A stretch of 52,455 nt of DNA from a virus. The notes beneath the pieces were generated by a model, which saw only the letters and a program-made list of their open reading frames with translations, had not been told where the DNA came from and searched no databases. Each line of letters opens with the position of its first letter. Positions within the stretch are counted from its first letter, which is position 1. The stretch lies in the IMG/VR virus record IMGVR_UViG_3300001533_001980, positions 1-52,455 of that record; one strand, written 5' to 3'. Positions 19,380 through 39,050 of the stretch are shown in pieces. The position numbers and the translations under genes are program-made.

Positions 19380-19508
19380 ATGAATAAGCACGCACAAGCA
19401 TTAGGCAGGCTGGCAAAGGGGAAGCCGAAGACTTTGACGAAAGCTGAAATCGACAGGAGAACCAAGCAGCTTGCCGAATCTCGCAAGAAGAGATGGTCCA
19501 AGAAATGA
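19380..19508 (+). CDS. 42-residue basic protein
   Basis: It encodes MNKHAQALGRLAKGKPKTL and ends AESRKKRWSKK. The pattern of Ala-Leu-Gly followed by Thr-x-Ala-Glu and a terminal AxxRxxRW is common in small phage and plasmid proteins of unknown function. Its stop overlaps the likely TnpB start (ATGA at 19505), so the two are coupled. Confidence 0.5.
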   Translation: MNKHAQALGRLAKGKPKTLTKAEIDRRTKQLAESRKKRWSKK

Positions 19509-20560
19509 TTGTCCGAACACTCAAACTCAAGCTGACGAAATCCCAGGAGGTCACTCTTGATGGCTGGCTTTGGAATCTTACTGGCGTATGGAATTTTGCG
19601 ATTCGCAAGATAGAGTTGGATGCTCGTGACAAGGTTTACCATTCACAGAATTACCTTCGGAATCTACTCTCTAATCACTCCAGTCGGTTAGGTATACCCT
19701 CTCACACATTGCAGGGCATGCTTTCACAGGCGTATCTGGCGTGGCAAAGATGTTTCCAAAAGAAAGCCAAGAAGCCAAGGCTCAAGGGAAACCGAAATAA
19801 ACTGAATTCCATTCCCTTCCCTGATCCATTACGACCACCCAAGGACAACAGGATTGCCATTCCCGGACTTGGCAAGGTTAGATGCTACAAGCAAGACTTG
19901 CCGGAAGTCAGAATCAAGTGCGGCAGAATAGTAAAGCGGGCTTCGGGTTGGTATTTCTGTCTCTGGATTGATACGGTGCATTCATTCCTCGTTCAAGATA
20001 CTGATAAAGCCGTTGGGATTGATCCAGGTTTCGATACCCTGCTTACCCTGTCCGACGGAACAAAGATAGAGAATCCCCGTGAGTTACGTAAGGGAGCGGC
20101 AAGGCTTGCTCAAGCCCAACGAGAACATGACAAGAAGTTGACAGCAAGGTTGCTTGATCGGCAAGCAAACAGAAGGCGTGACAGAAATCACAAAATCTCA
20201 AGGAAACTGGTCGAAGAAAACAAGACTATTTACTACAGCGATGACAACTTCAAAGGAATGGCAAGGAGATTCGGAAAGTCGGTTACGGAAGCAGGGTTGA
20301 ACCAACTGATTGCTATGATGAACTACAAGGGCACTGCAAGCGGTAGAGAAGTTATTCCAGTCAATTCATTTAGAACCACCATGACTTGCTCGGCTTGTGG
20401 GGCCTTAAGTGGCCCTACGGGATCGAGCGGGCTTGCGGTAAGGAATTGGGAATGTTCTGCTTGTGGGGCAGTTCACGACAGGGATATCAACTCTGCCGTG
20501 ACAGTTCTTAATACTGGGCTGGGAATCAGCCACGAGAGGAGATTAAGCAATGCAGCCTAA
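19505..20560 (+). CDS. tnpB: TnpB-like RNA-guided nuclease homologue, altered RuvC site
   Basis: 351 residues from ATG 19505 (ATG 19493 adds four). RuvC-I is GIDPGFDTLLTL with Asp at about 173. The RuvC-II segment is IYYSDDNFKGM, where family members have E at the position of Ser 245. The zinc ribbon is CSAC and CSAC, and RuvC-III is HDRDINSA with Asp. The missing Glu suggests a nuclease-weak or dead protein unless a neighbouring Asp substitutes. TnpB cuts DNA with a guide from the element's right end. No tnpA is nearby. The right-end hairpin is at 20571. Confidence 0.85.
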   Translation: MIVRTLKLKLTKSQEVTLDGWLWNLTGVWNFAIRKIELDARDKVYHSQNYLRNLLSNHSSRLGIPSHTLQGMLSQAYLAWQRCFQKKAKKPRLKGNRNKLNSIPFPDPLRPPKDNRIAIPGLGKVRCYKQDLPEVRIKCGRIVKRASGWYFCLWIDTVHSFLVQDTDKAVGIDPGFDTLLTLSDGTKIENPRELRKGAARLAQAQREHDKKLTARLLDRQANRRRDRNHKISRKLVEENKTIYYSDDNFKGMARRFGKSVTEAGLNQLIAMMNYKGTASGREVIPVNSFRTTMTCSACGALSGPTGSSGLAVRNWECSACGAVHDRDINSAVTVLNTGLGISHERRLSNAA

Positions 20561-23702: not shown

Positions 23703-25334
23703 ATGCTAGAAGACTTCTACGATAAGTATGACGTTCCCATTGGGGATAGGATTCCATTGGAGAAAAATATCCTCCTCGTGGTTCCGTCCCCCAAGTACGA
23801 CATATCGGAAGCGGTGAATGGACTGGGAGTATCTCGCTATGAGGTTGCCGTTACGTGGCCCAAAGACTCGATTGACATGCTCGCCGAAATTTGTGCGATG
23901 AAACCCAAGTTCGTTATCCAGTGTGGGCGCGGAATCACTCGCAAATTCCCCGCTGCCGAGACGGATGCGGAATTTAAGTGCTTTCGAGATAGGGCAATAG
24001 CCGCGACCGCTGATTCATTTGTCGGGCTTCACCACCATGACGAATTCAGCATTCGTGATGGGCTGGGGACGGTGAAGAGTCTGGTGGAATTGCTAAAAAA
24101 ACAGCGTCGATCTTTCTGTTGCGTGTCGAATCACGGGACGGTTGGCGGGTGGGTTCGCCAATATAGAGCGTGCAAGAGCGCGGGAGTGAAGCCAATTTTT
24201 GCCATGGAGGCGTATGTCTCCTCGTACCGGGGAGACGATGCCGAGCGTAAGAAAAAACATCGCAAGGCAAACCATCTTCTCTTGATTGCCAGGACGAGAG
24301 AGGGGTTCGACAACATCATTCGCATTCACAATGACGCGCAACTCAATGGGTTCTATTACAGTCCTCGTGTAGACCGAAAAGCAATTCGCAAGTGGGGCAA
24401 GGGCATATGTGCGACTTCGGCGTGTATGAAAGGCGAATTGCCCGAACTTCTCATGGAGAATCAATACCATCGCGCTCGCCGTCTGTATGAATTTTACGCT
24501 AAGTGTTTTGACCAGTTCTACATTGAGGTTCAGATTATCGAATGCGAGATGCAACGGGAGGTCAATCGAAGGCTTGTCAAGTTCGCACAGGACGTAGGGG
24601 CACCTTTGGTGATTGGTTGCGACTCCCATTACCTTGAGCCAGAACACGATTCTACCCACAACATTCTCATGTGTATTCGTCAGGGCAAGACTGTTATGGA
24701 GCAGAAGGAGCGTGACGATATTTGGGAATTCGACGTTGGAAACCTCTACTATCGAAATGCAGAGCAAGTTCGCCGTGGATTCTACAAGCCCTTCAAGGAG
24801 AAGGGGGCGGACTCAGAATCTCCTGCATTTTGCGACGATGTATTCACGGATGAAGTGTTCGAGTCCGCTATGGCGAATACTCGACTTATTGCCGTGGATT
24901 CCGAGATTATTGAGCTGGATTCTACCATTCGGCTACCTTGTCTGTATCCTGACGGGCGCAGTATTTTGCGCAATAAGGTCAACGATGGCTTCAGACGCAG
25001 GGGGCTCGATAATGGGTCGTCATATCTGGCTCAAGATGGTAAAAAAGTGAAGATTCCAGCTCAAGCATATATAGACAGACTGTGTATGGAGTTCGATGTC
25101 ATAACCAAGTTAGGATGGACGGACTATTTCCTGATCGTTGAAAAGATTGTCTCTGACGCCAAGGCAAAATACGGAGAATGGGTTGTTGGGATGGGGAGAG
25201 GAAGTGCAGCCGGTTCGGTGGTGTGTTATTGCCTTGGGATTACAGATGTAGATCCGCTCGTACATGGTCTTCTTTTCGAGCGATTTCTCTCGGCAGACAG
25301 AGTTGGAATTTCCGCTTGCTCTTTTGAGGTGTGA
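23703..25334 (+). CDS. dnaE: DNA polymerase III alpha-like, N-terminal part (PHP + first palm)
   Basis: 543 residues, ATG 23703 after AAGGTGTGA. The PHP domain begins near residue 108 with GLHHHDEFSIRDG, and VSNHGTV and CDSHYL supply further PHP residues. The palm start is present: YIDRLCMEFDVITKLGW, then GMGRGSAAGS (about 496-505), then GITDVDPLVHGLLFERFL. It ends 15 residues later, before the catalytic PDIDxDF motif. It therefore supplies PHP and nucleotide-binding parts but no catalytic Asp. The missing part is encoded 4 nt downstream. Confidence 0.9.
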   Translation: MLEDFYDKYDVPIGDRIPLEKNILLVVPSPKYDISEAVNGLGVSRYEVAVTWPKDSIDMLAEICAMKPKFVIQCGRGITRKFPAAETDAEFKCFRDRAIAATADSFVGLHHHDEFSIRDGLGTVKSLVELLKKQRRSFCCVSNHGTVGGWVRQYRACKSAGVKPIFAMEAYVSSYRGDDAERKKKHRKANHLLLIARTREGFDNIIRIHNDAQLNGFYYSPRVDRKAIRKWGKGICATSACMKGELPELLMENQYHRARRLYEFYAKCFDQFYIEVQIIECEMQREVNRRLVKFAQDVGAPLVIGCDSHYLEPEHDSTHNILMCIRQGKTVMEQKERDDIWEFDVGNLYYRNAEQVRRGFYKPFKEKGADSESPAFCDDVFTDEVFESAMANTRLIAVDSEIIELDSTIRLPCLYPDGRSILRNKVNDGFRRRGLDNGSSYLAQDGKKVKIPAQAYIDRLCMEFDVITKLGWTDYFLIVEKIVSDAKAKYGEWVVGMGRGSAAGSVVCYCLGITDVDPLVHGLLFERFLSADRVGISACSFEV

Positions 25335-25338
25335 ACGC

Positions 25339-27627
25339 ATGACATCTATTGAAAAACTGATAGAAATATGTGATGCGAGGTTGGTTGAATTAGGGTTATC
25401 ATCCGAGTATCGCGTTAGAATGGAAGACGAGGTTCTCCACCTTGAGAGATGGCATGATTACGGCAATCGAGACATGGCGGCTGAGCTTTTGAGCAAGATG
25501 GGCAATTCCCCCGTTCCGTCAAATAAGTCTGGCTCCTTGATATTGTTTCTTATGGGGATTTCGTCGGTTGATCCAATAGAACATGGCATCCCGATGTCCA
25601 GTGCGACAATCAGGAGCGGAGACGCTCCCGACATAGATAATGATTTTGACCCACGATATAGAGAGGACATTAAGCGTCATATCGTGGAGTCATTCGGGGA
25701 AGAGCGTGTCTGCTCGATTGGATCGTATCAAACCTATCGAACAAGTTCCGTGCTGACCGATGTAGCCCGAACGCTCGGTCTGGATATTCATGAGATTCGG
25801 GCTATAACTAAAAAGATTCAACCATTGCAGTCTTTCGAGGACGAAGAGGGGCAAGAGCAGAAGGTTGATGATATGAGTTTTGATGATTTATGCGAGCATT
25901 ATCCTGACCTGAAGGCATACCTTGAAAAGTATCCAGCGGTACGGAGGCACGCAGAAGTTCTCCGCAATCAAGTCAAGAACATGGGGACGCACGCAGGGGG
26001 CGTAATTATATCAGACCTCAATTTGCAAGGGCGAATACCTGTTCTATATGATAAGCCATCCAGTGAATCCAGAAAGATCATTTCGGCATGGGCTGAGGCA
26101 CCCGGCAAGAGCGAAGATTTGAGCGAGGTAGGACTTGTAAAATTCGATATTTTAGGGCTGAACACCCTTTCTGTTATATCGGACTGCATGGCACTGATTG
26201 AGAAAACGAGGGGCAAGAAAATAACAAGGGAGCAAGTTCCGATTGACGACAGGGAATCAATTCGCACTTGCTCTCGTGGTGACTTGGTGGGAATCTTTCA
26301 GCTTGAAAATCCAGCGACATTACCGGTGGCAAGGGAGGTGGCCCTTGAGACTCTTGGCGACGTTTCCGCTTTGACCTCTCTCATTCGCCCCGGACCAAGA
26401 GACATGGGGATGGATATGGAGTATGCTCGACGCAAGCATGGTCATCCCTACGTTATGCCTGATTTTCTAAAGCGCATGCTGGCAGACACATACGGAACAG
26501 TGGTTTTTCAGGAGCAGGCGATGTCTGTCGCACAGAAGATAGCGGGTCTTTCCAAGCCAGAATCTTACGGATTTGTTAAAGCAATCGCTAAGAAGCTGAA
26601 AGACAAAATGGCATCATTTCATCAGAAATTCAGAGATGGTTCCAAGCCACTACGAGATTCTGGCGAGCTGACTATGGAAGATGTTGATGCGATTTACAAT
26701 TTGCTGGAGACTTTTGCAGGATATGCGTTCAACCGGGCACATGCCGTCTCATATTCAGCTATTAGTACGATTCAGTTATGGTTAAAATACCATTATTTTC
26801 CCGAATTCTTGTGTGCCCTCATCAATAATACCGATCCTGGCAAGAAGAAACATGGTTCTTCCAATATCATGGTGGATTACATAAATTATTCTCGTCGAAG
26901 AGGCGTTGCTGTGCTCGGACCCCATATAAGTAAGAGCAAGGGGAGTTTCACGCTAGACAATGGAGATATTCGTTTTTCGCTGGGGCACATCAAGTACGTG
27001 GCGACTATGGCAAATGTAATCGAGTCGTTTCAGCCCATCGTCAGCATGGAGGATTTTCACGAAAGGGTGAAAGTAACGAGCGTAGGAAAGACGGGGCGCA
27101 AAACAAGTCGGAGACCTAACAAGCGGCAAGTGGAGAGTCTTATTGCGGCTGGTGCTTTTGACCATTTAGGGACTCGCAATGATGTAGCAGCGAAATACTA
27201 TGAATTAAGAAAGGGCAAGGAGGAAGATCCCCCGGAGAGAACTGATGATGAATGGGTAAATATGGAAAAAGAGGTAATTGGGGTATGCCTGTCAAAAGAA
27301 CCACTTTACAAACAGTATGAAGAACTCATTCGCAAGAATAAGTGGACGGCGATTCATGGGATAAGTGACAAGAAGAAAGTCCGGGTGTTCGGCAAGGTTG
27401 AAAATATTAGTCCTCATACGTCCAAGGCTGGCAACTCAATGTATATAGTAGTCCTTGGTGATGGTTTGGACGTTATGAAATTTTTCGTATTTGCTGGCGG
27501 CATGGAGTTCTTCCGTGAGAATGTTAAGATTGGGAATATCGGAGCGTTTCCACTGGATAGGTTTGACGACTCGGATACCCGTTTTTTTGATGATCGGGGT
27601 AATGTTGAAATTCTCAAAATGAAGTAG
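25339..27627 (+). CDS. dnaE: DNA polymerase III alpha-like, C-terminal part (catalytic palm, fingers, OB)
   Basis: 762 residues, ATG 25339 with GAGGTGTG upstream. Catalytic Asps are in PDIDNDF (about 97-103) and KFDILGL (about 270). Fingers motifs follow (LIRPGPRDMGMDMEYARR, FQEQAMSVAQKIAG, YAFNRAHAVSYS), then an OB-fold near the end. The first 90 residues are a diverged second copy of the segment that ends the upstream gene: SEYRVRMEDEV, then SNKSGSLILFLMGISSVDPIEHG, with the GRGSAAGS motif lost. The two proteins probably form one polymerase. Confidence 0.9.
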   Translation: MTSIEKLIEICDARLVELGLSSEYRVRMEDEVLHLERWHDYGNRDMAAELLSKMGNSPVPSNKSGSLILFLMGISSVDPIEHGIPMSSATIRSGDAPDIDNDFDPRYREDIKRHIVESFGEERVCSIGSYQTYRTSSVLTDVARTLGLDIHEIRAITKKIQPLQSFEDEEGQEQKVDDMSFDDLCEHYPDLKAYLEKYPAVRRHAEVLRNQVKNMGTHAGGVIISDLNLQGRIPVLYDKPSSESRKIISAWAEAPGKSEDLSEVGLVKFDILGLNTLSVISDCMALIEKTRGKKITREQVPIDDRESIRTCSRGDLVGIFQLENPATLPVAREVALETLGDVSALTSLIRPGPRDMGMDMEYARRKHGHPYVMPDFLKRMLADTYGTVVFQEQAMSVAQKIAGLSKPESYGFVKAIAKKLKDKMASFHQKFRDGSKPLRDSGELTMEDVDAIYNLLETFAGYAFNRAHAVSYSAISTIQLWLKYHYFPEFLCALINNTDPGKKKHGSSNIMVDYINYSRRRGVAVLGPHISKSKGSFTLDNGDIRFSLGHIKYVATMANVIESFQPIVSMEDFHERVKVTSVGKTGRKTSRRPNKRQVESLIAAGAFDHLGTRNDVAAKYYELRKGKEEDPPERTDDEWVNMEKEVIGVCLSKEPLYKQYEELIRKNKWTAIHGISDKKKVRVFGKVENISPHTSKAGNSMYIVVLGDGLDVMKFFVFAGGMEFFRENVKIGNIGAFPLDRFDDSDTRFFDDRGNVEILKMK

Positions 27628-31763: not shown

Positions 31764-31826
31764 ATGAAATTGAGCGAATATGCCCGACACAAGACAATTG
31801 TGATAGATGATGCGAGCAAAAAATGA
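31764..31826 (+). pseudogene. Relic of IS607 serine transposase tnpA
   Basis: A 20-codon frame, MKLSEYARHKTIVIDDASKK, whose first residues match the HTH start of IS607-type TnpA. The rest of the transposase is absent. Its stop overlaps the tnpB start (ATGA), the order seen in intact IS607 elements. Confidence 0.5.
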
Positions 31827-32899
31827 CAATCACCCGTACATCCAGATTTGCTTTGAAGTTTTCCAATTCTGGAAAGCGAAAGCAACTGCTTGATTTCGTC
31901 AATGAATATGTCAAGGTGGTCAATGCCATCATTGAACTGCTTTGGCAGGGCAAGGTTTTCAAGGGATCATTCGTATCAAAAGATATTCTATCACAAGTTG
32001 ACACTTGGCTTTCAGCAAGAGCATTGCAGGCTTGCGGCAAACAGGCTTTACAAGCGGTCAAATCACAACGAAAGCGCAGGAAGAAAACAATGCCTGTTGT
32101 CAGGTCTCAAACGGTTGAACTTGACCAGCGTTTTGTTTCCTTCATTGATGCCGATTCATCCTTCGATGAGTTTGTGAAGTTTTCGTCACTTGGGAACAAA
32201 CTAATTGTCGTTTGTCCGATCAAACACCACAGGCACTACAACGACCTTGTCTCTCGTGGTTTCAAGCGATCTAAGTCAACAAGGCTTACTGTCGTTAATG
32301 GCAGCCTGTATCTCGATGTCATACTCGAAAGAGAAGCCATACCCATTAAGTCAGGCAAAACCATCGGGATTGACATGGGTATCAAGAAACTGATGGTTGA
32401 TTCAGATGGCAATGAGTACGGCAAGGACATTGAAAGACTGCTGGACAAAGCTAACAGAAAGCAGTTCAAGTCTAGGGCGTTTGACAGGGCTTTAGCCGAA
32501 AGAGATGCCTATATCAATGCTGCCGTCAAGCAATTACCTCTTGCCAATGTCGTCATTGAAGATTTGGCAGGCTTGGACAAAAACACTAAGAAAAGGCTTA
32601 GAAAGCCATTCAGAAAGAAAGTCCATCGCTGGACTTATGCTAATCTCATAAAGTCGGTGGAAAGATATACAGAAGTAGTTGGAGTCCAATGTCTGCATGT
32701 CAACCCGGCTTATACATCGCAGACCTGTAGTAAATGCGGGTTTATTCACAAGTCAAACCGAGATGCTGAGTTATTCGAGTGTGGGAATTGTGGCTACACA
32801 GCGGATGCAGACTTTAATGCGTCTTTGAATATCTTGAATCGGTCACTGGCCCAGCAAAATATGGTCGCTGGAAGTACGAAAGCAAACATTCAACTATGA
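31823..32899 (+). CDS. tnpB: TnpB RNA-guided nuclease, intact catalytic triad
   Basis: 358 residues. RuvC-I GIDMGIKKLMVD (Asp about 184), RuvC-II VVIEDLAGLD (Glu about 246), zinc ribbon CSKCG and CGNCG, and RuvC-III ADADFNAS (Asp about 330). All three acidic residues are present, unlike the TnpB at 19505. The sequence is of a different subfamily. The omegaRNA would come from its 3' end, with a guide starting at about 32909 in the split zinc-finger gene. Confidence 0.88.
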   Translation: MTITRTSRFALKFSNSGKRKQLLDFVNEYVKVVNAIIELLWQGKVFKGSFVSKDILSQVDTWLSARALQACGKQALQAVKSQRKRRKKTMPVVRSQTVELDQRFVSFIDADSSFDEFVKFSSLGNKLIVVCPIKHHRHYNDLVSRGFKRSKSTRLTVVNGSLYLDVILEREAIPIKSGKTIGIDMGIKKLMVDSDGNEYGKDIERLLDKANRKQFKSRAFDRALAERDAYINAAVKQLPLANVVIEDLAGLDKNTKKRLRKPFRKKVHRWTYANLIKSVERYTEVVGVQCLHVNPAYTSQTCSKCGFIHKSNRDAELFECGNCGYTADADFNASLNILNRSLAQQNMVAGSTKANIQL

Positions 32900-35073: not shown

Positions 35074-38000
35074 TCAAAAGAAAGGCGCGCATTCGCGCTT
35101 GCCGTCAAACGCCTCCGGCCAGCCGCCGTGCGCCTCAATGGTCTGGTCTATGGCGTTCATCAGCCGGATCGTCTCGTGCAAGGCGACGACGATTTTCTGG
35201 TAGTGCTGGATGTCGGCGTAGTCGAGGGTGCGGCCCTTTCGGTCTTTGAGCCACTTTTCGCAGACCTGGTAGCCGCCGACGCGGAAGTTCCAGACGTCTG
35301 CCGGAATGCCGCCGAAATATTGGGTGGCGTTGATGTGGACGCGGCCGGTGGGGTCGGGGGACGCGGACGGTAATGAGGAGAATGCAGGCGGGACGCCCGC
35401 ACCACTTTCTTCCGACGGCAGGCAAGATGCCTGCACCACGTTAAAGATGACTCGGTCAACTTCGTTGGTGCCTTTTTCGGGGAAGTCGGTGATGAAGTGA
35501 TCGAGATTGGGGGATTGCAGGAGATGCAGGGCGACGAGGTCGACGCCATGTGCGGCGAGGCGGAAGAAGAGGTCGTGGTCGGCGGTGAGGGGCAGGCGCG
35601 GGAAGTCGATTTTGAGGAATTCGGCGTAACGCTCGCGATAGGTCGGCGAATGGAGGATGGCGTAGGCGTAGTGGAAGATGTCTTCGGGCGTGAACCGGGC
35701 GGGTGCTGACGCTGACGCGGCGGGCGCAGCGACAAACGGGATGCCAAGCCGCTTTTCGAGATCGGCTATGAACTTTGGATTCAGGTTCGGACGTCGCCCG
35801 CCGGAGATATCAAGCTCGTCGCCCTCGGGGTGGAGGTAGAGGGGGAAAGCGGTGTTGATGTCGTAGGCGGCAACGGACTTATGAGCCGCCAGCGCGTTTG
35901 TGCAAAGAAGCCCGAACGGTTCCTCGGTCTTGCGGGTGGTTAGTATCGCCAGATTGTCGCCGTCGGGATGGAGGTAGAGGGGGAAAGCGGAGGTTATCTC
36001 ACGCGTGCGATTTGACACGCTACAGCATTCGGAAATAGCAGACGAACAGAAGACATGGACATAGTCACCGGCAATCACTTGGCGGCAGGCCAGTAGCGAA
36101 AGGTTGTCGATGGTCATGTGTCGCATGACCGGGCGTGCCGGCGTGCCGATGAATCCGCGCGATTGGCCGCTGTACCAGGTGTGGCGAAGGTCGAACGGGC
36201 GATACAAGATCGGCTGGAAACAGGTGTCTTCGCGGTTTTTGGCCACATCCGCCTTGGCTTTGGCGACTTGCCAGTCGCGGCTGTCTTTGTGCAGATCATA
36301 GCGGGTGCGGATCGCGTTTTCGTCGAGTGTGCGGAAATCCTCCACGACTCGCCGGATGCCTTCTTTCGTGAAATGGATGGATAAACGATCACGCTCGGTT
36401 TTGACGGCATTACCGGAAACCGTGAAGACCTCGCGCAAGGACCAGCCGCGCTCGTATTCTTCCCGGCTGCGGTCGTCCTTGGGCACGAAGAAGTGATAGG
36501 GCTCGTTCGGGGCGAGTTCGGTCCAGGGGGTGGTTTCGGCGTCGTTTTCCCAGAGCCAGTGGTATTTGCCGCCGACGAGCCGGTCGTCTTCGTAGAGGGC
36601 GCGGCGGCCCCAGAGGTCGGCGTGGTATACGCGGGCCAAGGTAGACGCGGCGTCACGCCGCGTTGGAACGAGGCGGGACGCCGCGTCTACTTTGTTTTTC
36701 ACCGCCAGGAGGATGGATACGCCGACGGTGATGTCGAAGACGTTTTCGTCCTTGCCGCCGTCGGGAGTCCTTTCCTTCTTCTTGGAACTGCCATGCAGGT
36801 TGAGGACATAGATTTCGTCGAAGGATTCGAGCAGGCTTTGGCGCATGCGGCGATGGGTGATGCCGTCGAGGTAGCTGTTGTTGGTGATGAAGCCGACGAT
36901 GCCGTGGCCGGTCTGGTCAATGCGCCATTGGGCGAAGCGGATGAACTTGATGTAGTCGTCGTCGAGGTTGAGCTTCTTCTCGTTGAGGTCGCGTTTGTAG
37001 TCGGCCAGCAGCCCGAGAATCCAGGGGTTGCGGTTCATCTGGCCGAAGTTGGAATAGGGCGGATTGCCCATGACGACCATGATCTCGCGGTCGCGCTTGA
37101 TTTCGGCGGCGGCGTTGGCTTCGCGCGAAATGAACTGGCCGAGCAGCATCTCGGAGCGCTTGGCGGCTTCTTCGAGGGTGTTGGTGAGGTAGATGCCGAG
37201 CCGCTGGTCGCTGCCGAAGGTGTAGCCGGTGGTTTCGAGTTGCATGCTGAGCTTGAGGTGGGCGACGGCATAGGGGGCCATGAGCAGTTCGAAGCCGAAC
37301 AGGCGCGGCAGGAGATGGCGGCCGACATAGCCGTCCCTCACGCCGCGCTGACGCTGGAACGCCTCCTGGATACGCTCGATGGCGAAGTACAGGAAGGTGC
37401 CCGTGCCGGTGGCCGGGTCGAGGATGAGGGTGTTTTCGTCGGCCAGTCCCCTGGGACGGTCGAGGCGGGTCTTGAGCAGCCAGTCGAGCGAGCGGACGAT
37501 GTAGCGGACGACGGGTTCGGGGGTGTAGAAGACGCCGCGCACGTCGCGCAGGGCCGGATCGTAGGCGGCCAGGAAGGTTTCGTAGAAGTGGACGACGGGG
37601 TCTTCGCGGCCTTTGCACTTGCCGAAATCGCGCAGGATTTCGCCCATGTCGGCGTGCGCGAGCAGGGCGACCATGTCGTTGACCGCCCAGGCGATGGTGT
37701 CGGGCATGCGCGCACCAGCGATCTGCTCGAAGAGCAGGCGCAGGAAGGGATTGGTGCGCGGCAGGTACTGGGCGGCGGAGAGGCGGGAGAAGGGCTTGCT
37801 GGGGGCCTGTGCGCGGGCGGCGAAGAGGCCGTAGGCCAGCGTCTGGGCGAACATGTCGGCGAAGGCGTGCTCGTCGAGATCGGGAATCAGGGTCTCGCGA
37901 AAGGCGGTCAGCCATTCGTTCAGCCAGACATCGGGAGTGCCATAGCCGGGCATGGTCTCGTGGACGGCCCGCGTGTCGGCGGACTTCTGCCGCTCCTTCT

Positions 38001-38559
38001 CGTCCCGCAGCGTGGCCAGCAGGAGGTCGCGCAGCATGCGCGTGAACCCGGCCATGTGGCGGGCCAGATCACGGGCCGTGGAGACAGTCAGGGCGGGCTG
38101 GGTATAGAACGCCGTGAGGAAGGCGGTGAGTTGCGCCGCGCCGTCGGGCACGGGCTTGAGACGCCCCTTGGCATCGAAATCGGCCACGCGCAGGGTCAGC
38201 CGCTTCTCGCCGGCGGCATACCAGCGGAATTCAAGGTAATCGGTCAGCACCCAGTTCGGCAGGGTGGCATAGCGCAGGAACTGCCCACCGTTCGGCCCCT
38301 TGCCGCGCTCCATCTCATCGAGGTTGACGCCGACATCCTTGGTCTCGATATGCCCGACCGGCACACCATTGCGCGTGATGTTGAAATCCGGGGCGCCGCA
38401 GGCGATGCGGCGGGGCTCGTTGGTGGCGACGATGCCGGGGTCAACGGCTTCGAGCAACGCCTTCAGCGCCGGGCGGTGCGTATGCTCGGTGGCGTCACCG
38501 CGCTCGATATTCGCGCGCAGGTCGCGTATGTAGTCGCCGAATGTGCTATGGTTGGGCAT
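35074..38559 (-). CDS. Type ISP-like restriction-modification enzyme (nuclease + N6-adenine MTase + TRD)
   Basis: 1161 residues from ATG 38559; the frame is open from 38712, but the MPNHSTFGDYIRDLRANI start fits the family. N-terminal PD-(D/E)xK-type nuclease: GAPDFNITRNGVPVGHIETK (about 55-75). Methyltransferase motif I DPATGTGTFL (near 370) and motif IV NPPYSNF (near 490). The C-terminal half is a target-recognition region. No helicase domain is present, unlike LlaGI-type ISP enzymes, so it is a single-chain enzyme that cuts and methylates. Two palindromic insertions lie in frame within it. Confidence 0.8.
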   Translation of the reverse strand: MPNHSTFGDYIRDLRANIERGDATEHTHRPALKALLEAVDPGIVATNEPRRIACGAPDFNITRNGVPVGHIETKDVGVNLDEMERGKGPNGGQFLRYATLPNWVLTDYLEFRWYAAGEKRLTLRVADFDAKGRLKPVPDGAAQLTAFLTAFYTQPALTVSTARDLARHMAGFTRMLRDLLLATLRDEKERQKSADTRAVHETMPGYGTPDVWLNEWLTAFRETLIPDLDEHAFADMFAQTLAYGLFAARAQAPSKPFSRLSAAQYLPRTNPFLRLLFEQIAGARMPDTIAWAVNDMVALLAHADMGEILRDFGKCKGREDPVVHFYETFLAAYDPALRDVRGVFYTPEPVVRYIVRSLDWLLKTRLDRPRGLADENTLILDPATGTGTFLYFAIERIQEAFQRQRGVRDGYVGRHLLPRLFGFELLMAPYAVAHLKLSMQLETTGYTFGSDQRLGIYLTNTLEEAAKRSEMLLGQFISREANAAAEIKRDREIMVVMGNPPYSNFGQMNRNPWILGLLADYKRDLNEKKLNLDDDYIKFIRFAQWRIDQTGHGIVGFITNNSYLDGITHRRMRQSLLESFDEIYVLNLHGSSKKKERTPDGGKDENVFDITVGVSILLAVKNKVDAASRLVPTRRDAASTLARVYHADLWGRRALYEDDRLVGGKYHWLWENDAETTPWTELAPNEPYHFFVPKDDRSREEYERGWSLREVFTVSGNAVKTERDRLSIHFTKEGIRRVVEDFRTLDENAIRTRYDLHKDSRDWQVAKAKADVAKNREDTCFQPILYRPFDLRHTWYSGQSRGFIGTPARPVMRHMTIDNLSLLACRQVIAGDYVHVFCSSAISECCSVSNRTREITSAFPLYLHPDGDNLAILTTRKTEEPFGLLCTNALAAHKSVAAYDINTAFPLYLHPEGDELDISGGRRPNLNPKFIADLEKRLGIPFVAAPAASASAPARFTPEDIFHYAYAILHSPTYRERYAEFLKIDFPRLPLTADHDLFFRLAAHGVDLVALHLLQSPNLDHFITDFPEKGTNEVDRVIFNVVQASCLPSEESGAGVPPAFSSLPSASPDPTGRVHINATQYFGGIPADVWNFRVGGYQVCEKWLKDRKGRTLDYADIQHYQKIVVALHETIRLMNAIDQTIEAHGGWPEAFDGKRECAPFF
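35388..35434. repeat. Paired palindromes inside the R-M coding sequence
   Basis: GCGGG-ACG-CCCGC (35388-35400) and GCAGGCA-AGA-TGCCTGC (35418-35434) form two hairpins 17 nt apart. On the minus strand they encode VQASCLPSEESGAGVPPA in frame. The form is that of interspersed palindromic repeats that insert in coding regions. Confidence 0.65.
36641..36690. repeat. 14-bp inverted repeat inside the R-M coding sequence
   Basis: GTAGACGCGGCGTC (36641-36654) and GACGCCGCGTCTAC (36677-36690) are perfect inverted repeats around a 22-nt loop. On the minus strand it encodes VDAASRLVPTRRDAAST, a stretch that looks foreign between methyltransferase and recognition segments. Confidence 0.7.
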
Positions 38560-38707
38560 AAGGTGACAAGCGACCTTCCAGTTCCGAGATATTCTCCGAT
38601 ACATGTGCCAACAAATCGTCAGCCGTCGTCCATTCGGGGTCTTCCAGATCGGCTCTGGCATAGGCCAGCCAATCGCGGGGATTCCAGGAGTCAGTCTTTC
38701 TCGGCAA
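38546..38707 (-). pseudogene. Truncated HEPN-domain ORF
   Basis: About 53 residues if read from TTG 38707: TDSWNPRDWLAYARADLED, then DDLLAHVSENISELEGRL. It resembles the first helix pair of HEPN proteins that pair with MNT nucleotidyltransferases, but the RNase motif (R-x4-6-H) and the second half are missing. It overlaps the ends of both neighbours. Confidence 0.35.
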
Positions 38708-39050
38708 GACACACCCCCTCACGCAGGATGGTTTCGAAAAAAGGATCGCGAATGTGGCGTTTCTCGGCCAAACGTTCCAGAGATATCGGCACCTGGTTCA
38801 AGGCAGGCTTGTTGCGGATGCGTCCGATGGCCCGGCGCAGGGTGCGTGCCGTCGACTGTTGCGTCTCGATCCCGTTCGTGACGATACACAGGTCGATATC
38901 GCTTTCCGGCGCGTTCTCGCCACGCGAATACGATCCGAAAAGCAAAACGCGCTCGACATGCAGGACCTCATCGAATGCCTGAATGCACGCCTGCAATCCA
39001 TCCGCATGCGCGTGCAACGCTTCCGCCATTCGTTCTGATCGAACTTTCAT
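38691..39050 (-). CDS. MNT-type nucleotidyltransferase
   Basis: 119 residues from ATG 39050 (frame open from 39122). The signature GSYSRGENAPESDIDLCIV gives the GS-x10-DxD site of the Pol-beta nucleotidyltransferase superfamily. In MntA-HepT systems this protein is the antitoxin that modifies a HEPN toxin. Here the downstream HEPN-like ORF is truncated, so the pair is probably broken or the ORF is used differently. Confidence 0.75.
   Translation of the reverse strand: MKVRSERMAEALHAHADGLQACIQAFDEVLHVERVLLFGSYSRGENAPESDIDLCIVTNGIETQQSTARTLRRAIGRIRNKPALNQVPISLERLAEKRHIRDPFFETILREGVCLAEKD

Follow-up and report, generated by a model that had tools for sequence, protein, structure and literature searches.

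A putative two-chain family C DNA polymerase of phages with reciprocally decayed palm copies at the break between its genes

In the phage-like contig IMGVR_UViG_3300001533_001980 of IMG/VR (positions 1 to 52,455, a stretch of 52,455 nucleotides (nt) hereafter called the window), a DnaE-type polymerase is encoded by two adjacent genes on the plus strand. Gene 1 (23703..25334) encodes an N half of 543 amino acids (aa) with the PHP domain and the N-lobe of the palm; gene 2 (25339..27627, with its ATG at 25339) encodes a C half of 762 aa with the catalytic palm strands, the fingers, and a helix-hairpin-helix (HhH) domain. Both chains can be aligned with the DnaE (Pol III alpha) of Thermus aquaticus (Taq; 2HPI), the PHP domain, GS motif, three catalytic Asp residues, fingers, and HhH all having counterparts in the pair. 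Compared with Taq DnaE, however, there are two chains, and each has its own version of the palm N-lobe, lacking what the version in the other chain keeps. We consider it probable that the two genes specify a two-chain family C (DnaE-type) replicative polymerase whose active site is assembled across the chains and whose split originated in a homing-type insertion.

Chain 1 matches PF02811 (PHP, 2.6e-35) and the N-terminal part of PF07733 (1.7e-28). Its palm N-lobe (25056..25304, PF07733 positions 20–99), the first copy of the duplicated segment, contains the intact GS motif GRGSAAGS (25194..25217), which is conserved across relatives and occurs in chain 1 only. The GS motif binds the triphosphate of the incoming dNTP. 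The chain ends with GLLFERFLSADRVGISACSFEV followed by a stop; the initial annotation had correctly placed this end before PDIDxDF, but had put it 15 residues after GLLFERFL, where the actual distance is 14. Judged against the junction in the unsplit relatives L013 and L017, a tail, VGISACSFEV, and the stop (25302..25334) stand in place of PDPPDIDxDF, and the catalytic Asp residues are absent from the chain. These are found in chain 2: the first two in PDIDND (25627..25644), which occurs in this chain only and is aligned with PDIDTD of Taq DnaE, and the third as Asp270 of VGLVKFD (26146..26148), aligned with LGLLKMD of Taq DnaE and invariant in relatives. Chain 2 further matches PF07733 (68–260), PF17657 (fingers, 7.8e-38), and PF14579 (HHH, 2.7e-12), so jointly the chains cover PF07733, PHP, fingers, and HhH. 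The pair thus has all the parts of a family C DnaE, but not in a single polypeptide: the two open reading frames (ORFs) lie in different frames, and gene 2 has its own Shine–Dalgarno-like sequence, GAGGTG (25326..25331), 7 nt upstream of its ATG. Given this sequence and a gap of only 4 nt between the genes, gene 2 can be translated independently.

Residues 1–96 of chain 2 (25339..25626), here called the head, duplicate the palm N-lobe in diverged form. The PF07733 ranges of the two chains, 20–99 and 68–260, place about 32 positions of this curated model in both; in the C half of a related contig, L015, the match runs from position 4 to 260. When the window and L015 heads, with PDIDxDF cut off, were compared by hhalign with a palm profile of 19 DnaE sequences, they aligned over 86 collinear columns with a score of 44.8 (P 9e-8), against a best score of 21.2 for 200 column-shuffled heads. 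The window head alone gave an E-value of 1.1e-4 in hmmsearch (Z=1000), compared with 0.031 for the best of 3000 shuffles. In tblastn, a query of the first 104 residues of chain 2, PDIDND included, matched the palm of intact phage DnaE proteins, among them that of Cronobacter phage Ss1 (query residues 7–103, 35% identity, E 5e-6). The head of L044, taken alone, showed no significant similarity to the palm. The loss of motifs is reciprocal: the head lacks the GS motif, a degenerate GS helix, SNKSGSLILFLMGIS (25519..25563), replacing GRGSAAGSLVxYCLGIT, and chain 1 lacks PDPPDIDxDF. The initial annotation had already taken about the first 90 residues of chain 2 for a second, diverged version of the region before PDIDxDF, citing SEYRVRMEDEV (residues 22–32) and SGSLILFLMGISSVDPIEHG (residues 64–83), and had assigned GRGSAAGS to the first protein only and the catalytic Asp residues to the second only. 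The sequences bear out this assignment, and the relationship to the palm, which that annotation would have given up had residues 1–90 proved unrelated, extends over 96 residues. The heads also carry a Trp (RWHDY in the window, AWNRY in L015) that this polymerase clade has at the same position (GWADY), where the other DnaEs examined have Phe; this suggests that the head was copied from part of the gene of the clade itself.

Relatives were sought in IMG/VR contigs, in isolate phages, and in one species-genome scan. L015, which is 54–57% identical to the window, has the same arrangement of tail and head. Its N half ends in SGVRACTFEL and a stop, a 79-aa zinc-finger-like ORF and a 248-aa nuclease-like ORF follow, and its C half starts with a 102-residue head that is 43–45% identical to that of the window. 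A PHROG HNH-endonuclease profile covers the zinc-finger part of the 248-aa ORF (1.5e-12) and other PHROG profiles its nuclease-like part; the zinc fingers recur in the L012 nuclease gene (E 1e-8). A search of viral contigs for further heads recovered only L015 again; among the matches listed, isolate phages have intact palms and no heads, and the three loci found in the species-genome scan are all unsplit. Single unsplit genes are also present among the IMG/VR relatives (L009, L010, L016, L017, and L019), and L014 has one ORF with an intein-like insert.

In trees of the N half and of the C body, the window is sister to L013 and L015 is sister to L017, each with 100% bootstrap support (N/C identities of 77/71% and 72/71%, respectively), and both L013 and L017 are uninterrupted at the junction of the window and L015. 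Where the window reads FLSADR, then the break, then PDIDNDFDPRYRE, L013 reads FLSVDRPDPPDIDNDFDPRYRE across the site and so provides an uninterrupted allele with the same flanks in a close relative. The flanks of L015 likewise match L017, and tail and head are common to the window and L015 only. A unit that is present or absent at one codon, with flanks matching those of unsplit sisters, behaves like a precise homing-type insertion. As read from these alignments, the unit would consist of the tail with its stop, a nuclease gene in some cases, and the start with its head, the pattern expected of homing-type elements. The initial annotation overlooked this probable link to homing endonucleases, to which the precise site, its vacancy in the nearest relatives, and the position of the segment on either side of the L015 nuclease gene all point. 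Between the window and L013, nonsynonymous divergence (pN) is 0.16 for the N half and 0.13 for the C half, with synonymous divergence (pS) of 0.84 and 0.87; for the head, compared between the window and L015, pN is 0.44 and pS 0.74. With pN far below the saturated pS, the N half, the C half, and the head are all being kept as protein by purifying selection.

Two contigs unrelated to the window, L089 and L036, show the reciprocal layout at the same codon. In L089, which belongs to a different DnaE group, the N half ends with FERFLNPAR and a 40-residue tail, the gap holds an endonuclease ORF (PHROG endonuclease family, 7.8e-47; weak LAGLIDADG signal), and the C half has a 92-residue head (YSNPQSSTVLYVIGLT) ahead of CDIDIDID; PF07733 is covered at 1–104 and 69–260, an overlap like that in the window. 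In the 158-kb contig L036, the N half ends with FERFLNPARKTRLKFF; the C half is encoded some 4 kb from it, with the order of the halves reversed, and its 83-residue head precedes ADVDCDF. The GS motif is found solely in the N half in all four contigs (the window, L015, L089, and L036), and the PDIDxD/PDVDxD-type motif and KxD solely in the C half, again in four of four. Of these contigs, L015 and L089 have a nuclease-type ORF in the gap between the halves.

From these features we infer polymerase activity, an assembled complex, a function of the head, and mobility. Chain 1 would contribute the PHP nuclease together with the GS-containing palm lobe, and chain 2 the three metal-binding Asp residues, the thumb, the fingers, and the DNA-binding HhH, the two joining non-covalently. 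In residues 1–96 of chain 2 the palm N-lobe persists as a decayed copy, as does the region around PDIDxDF in the last residues of chain 1. The head may keep chain 2 folded as a stand-in for the missing lobe, dock chain 1, or both. The most likely origin is an insertion of the homing-endonuclease type at a fixed codon, after FLxxxR and before PDID, that would have brought the stop of chain 1, an endonuclease gene (present in L015, absent from the window), and a new start with a palm-derived head for chain 2. More tentatively, the unit could be a mobile homing-endonuclease cassette with its own reassembly module, a decoy palm lobe being delivered together with the stop and the endonuclease gene.

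Several observations weigh against this proposal. The heads of the window and L015 are only 43% identical, less than the flanks, so the pattern may reflect an early insertion with later losses rather than a recent transfer. In the window itself, no endonuclease gene separates the halves, which are just 4 nt apart. The palm of the active site may hold either the GS lobe of chain 1 or the head of chain 2, and the heads of L089 and L036 have diverged so far that their descent from the palm is only suggested (joint P 4e-4). In favour of the proposal, we detected no additional polymerase of family A, B, or C in any of the four split-gene contigs, nor an exonuclease of the DnaQ type, yet these contigs may be incomplete, and a second polymerase could therefore reside elsewhere in the genome.

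The same layout could have arisen by plain fission: some 100 codons would have been duplicated in tandem within the gene, the copies would then have decayed in complementary ways, and the endonucleases would be later passengers. Such a history agrees with the clade's own Trp in the head, with the lack of an endonuclease in the window, and with the separation and inverted order of the L036 halves; it sits poorly with an identical insertion codon in several lineages, with nuclease-type ORFs between the halves in two, and with a tail and head that the window and L015 have and their unsplit sisters do not, and we regard it as unlikely. We think it distinctly unlikely that chain 2 polymerizes alone, with the degenerate head as its palm lobe, while chain 1 acts as an independent PHP nuclease and uses what is left of its palm just for docking. 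The head does cover the whole palm N-lobe (PF07733 4–260 in L015), so that chain 2 might fold by itself, but each of the four heads has lost the GS motif, each of the four N halves has preserved it, and the palm lobe of the N half is constrained as much as in unsplit relatives.

The initial annotation had described a two-gene polymerase with a duplicated segment, which stands and recurs in other phages, and had suggested recombination between two dnaE-like genes as its origin, which we find very improbable: the two segment copies are strongly diverged, as a hybrid would predict, but the Trp of the head is specific to the clade and indicates a partial copy of its own gene, a second dnaE was not found in the contigs, and both flanks of the junction come from one lineage. 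It is barely credible that the pair is an assembly or sequencing artefact or a decaying pseudogene; the contig is metagenomic and the genes lie in different frames, but tail and head are repeated in the independent contig L015, the ORFs are long and intact, and pN is far below pS. A sequencing frameshift, which the initial annotation had named as fatal to its reading, cannot create a duplicate, and because L015 has the same tail and head, and L089 and L036 the same reciprocal layout at the same codon, the break is not a frameshift artefact. A programmed +1 frameshift joining the window genes is possible in principle, but in L015 and L089 a nuclease ORF lies between the halves. In line with the initial annotation, neither protein matches an intein family in Pfam or PHROGs, and a 10-residue tail and a palm-like head leave no room for the two parts of a split intein. 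Neither the L015 gap nor the window gave an Rfam match to a group I or II intron, and within the window there is no significant remnant of the nuclease of L015 or L020.

The proposed homing-type origin of the two-chain polymerase has precedents. Genes split by homing endonucleases include nrdA/mobE of phage Aeh1, T4 gene 60/mobA, and gene 43A/43B of Aeromonas phage 25, according to sections of a review (PMC2988022), which also state that Aeh1 NrdA and gp43A/B of Aeromonas phage 25 are active as two chains and which pose the reassembly of such enzyme halves as a question in the field; a structural precedent for a split site is found in PMC11646218. As those sections present them, these are likewise essential replication genes cut into two ORFs by a nuclease gene, without splicing. 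The window pair differs in being of family C, in being split between the GS motif and the catalytic Asp residues, and in having a reciprocally decayed duplicate at the break, of which the same sections make no mention. Gene splitting by homing endonucleases is thus already known, and we came across no account of a duplicate interface with reciprocal decay.

A nuclease-type ORF also separates the two halves of phage replication genes that are fractured by split inteins (Dassa et al. 2009, as cited in PMC10448857), and L020, L031, and L012/L013 seem to belong to this class, in contrast to the junctions of the window and L015, which have no intein halves. By eye, L020 (2097–8379) and L031 (7992–15877) have split-intein-like halves at the GS loop, with breaks at GRG^S, and L012/L013 have a similar fracture in the fingers (L012: 8612–13600, break at TYQEQ^C), each with nuclease ORFs between the halves. 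The nuclease ORFs in L020, L031, and L012 have TnsA-like or Vsr-like motifs, and the L020 gap contains an additional ORF that by eye resembles an MT-A70-type methyltransferase.

Split family C genes are known from isolate phages as well. In the Cellulophaga phages phi13:1 (gp38/gp39), phiST, and phi19:2, the dnaE break falls at the same point, following LLFERFLxxxR and preceding PDID, so that the split point for which the initial annotation proposed a search recurs in L015, L089, L036, and these phages. The Cellulophaga C half has about 19 residues before PDID and no palm duplicate, and the N half a tail of about 54 residues. The tail in phi13:1 (L054), YKLTLEDGSIVELPEGTVVKIIRNKKEISIFIHDIIEGDDLIKY, looks by eye like the second half of the N-part of an intein without the catalytic start, and on this resemblance is possibly a non-splicing intein relic that holds the halves together. 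The actinophages Weasels2, MortySmith, BiteSize, and Send513 build a family C polymerase from two or more genes, with the split near the PHP/palm boundary; by sequence, Weasels2 has the whole palm in one chain and no duplicate. The split DnaEs of Cuke, Weasels2, and Staphylococcus phage VPHSA2 are broken elsewhere, and their sequences contain no duplicated palm segment. Break sites also differ from that of the window in L074, L075, and L076, whose family C genes are broken in or near the fingers and have a DnaQ-like exonuclease ORF in or beside the gap.

The break in the window crosses the active site of a replicative polymerase, and in several phage lineages the halves each retain the other's interface in decayed form. 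This layout, found in unrelated phages and twice with a nuclease gene between the halves, suggests how essential enzymes survive splitting, and it makes the question of reassembly testable with one gene pair. If the unit were a cassette with its own reassembly module, it would represent a third way for a selfish element to persist inside an essential gene, beside RNA splicing (introns) and protein splicing (inteins). Naturally evolved two-part polymerases could also be useful for controllable DNA synthesis.

As for the remaining parts of the two chains, the PHP domain (PF02811) lies at 24027..24533, the fingers (PF17657) at 26164..26643, and the HhH domain (PF14579) at 26902..27177. Nine PHP positions that we take to be metal ligands (H110, H112, D119, H144, E169, H191, C241, D307, and H309) are invariant in the aligned relatives (9/9), D307 and H309 falling past the end of the Pfam match. 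Ahead of the PHP domain, residues 1–105 of chain 1 (23703–24020) form an N-terminal domain of about 100 residues that is conserved in the clade and has no Pfam match. The window also encodes SNF2 and DnaB helicases, a Toprim primase, a sigma factor, and RecA. Elsewhere in it, an 829-aa plus-strand ORF without a family match (36493–38982) overlaps the gene for a 1212-aa Type ISP-like restriction-modification enzyme (35074–38712; Type_ISP_C 6.6e-87, with an N6-methylase domain), which lies on the minus strand, opposite to most window genes. Two TnpB/IS605 OrfB-like genes with a Cas12f1-like TNB domain, beside which no TnpA was noticed although no search aimed at it was made, are located at 19493–20560 and 31823–32899.

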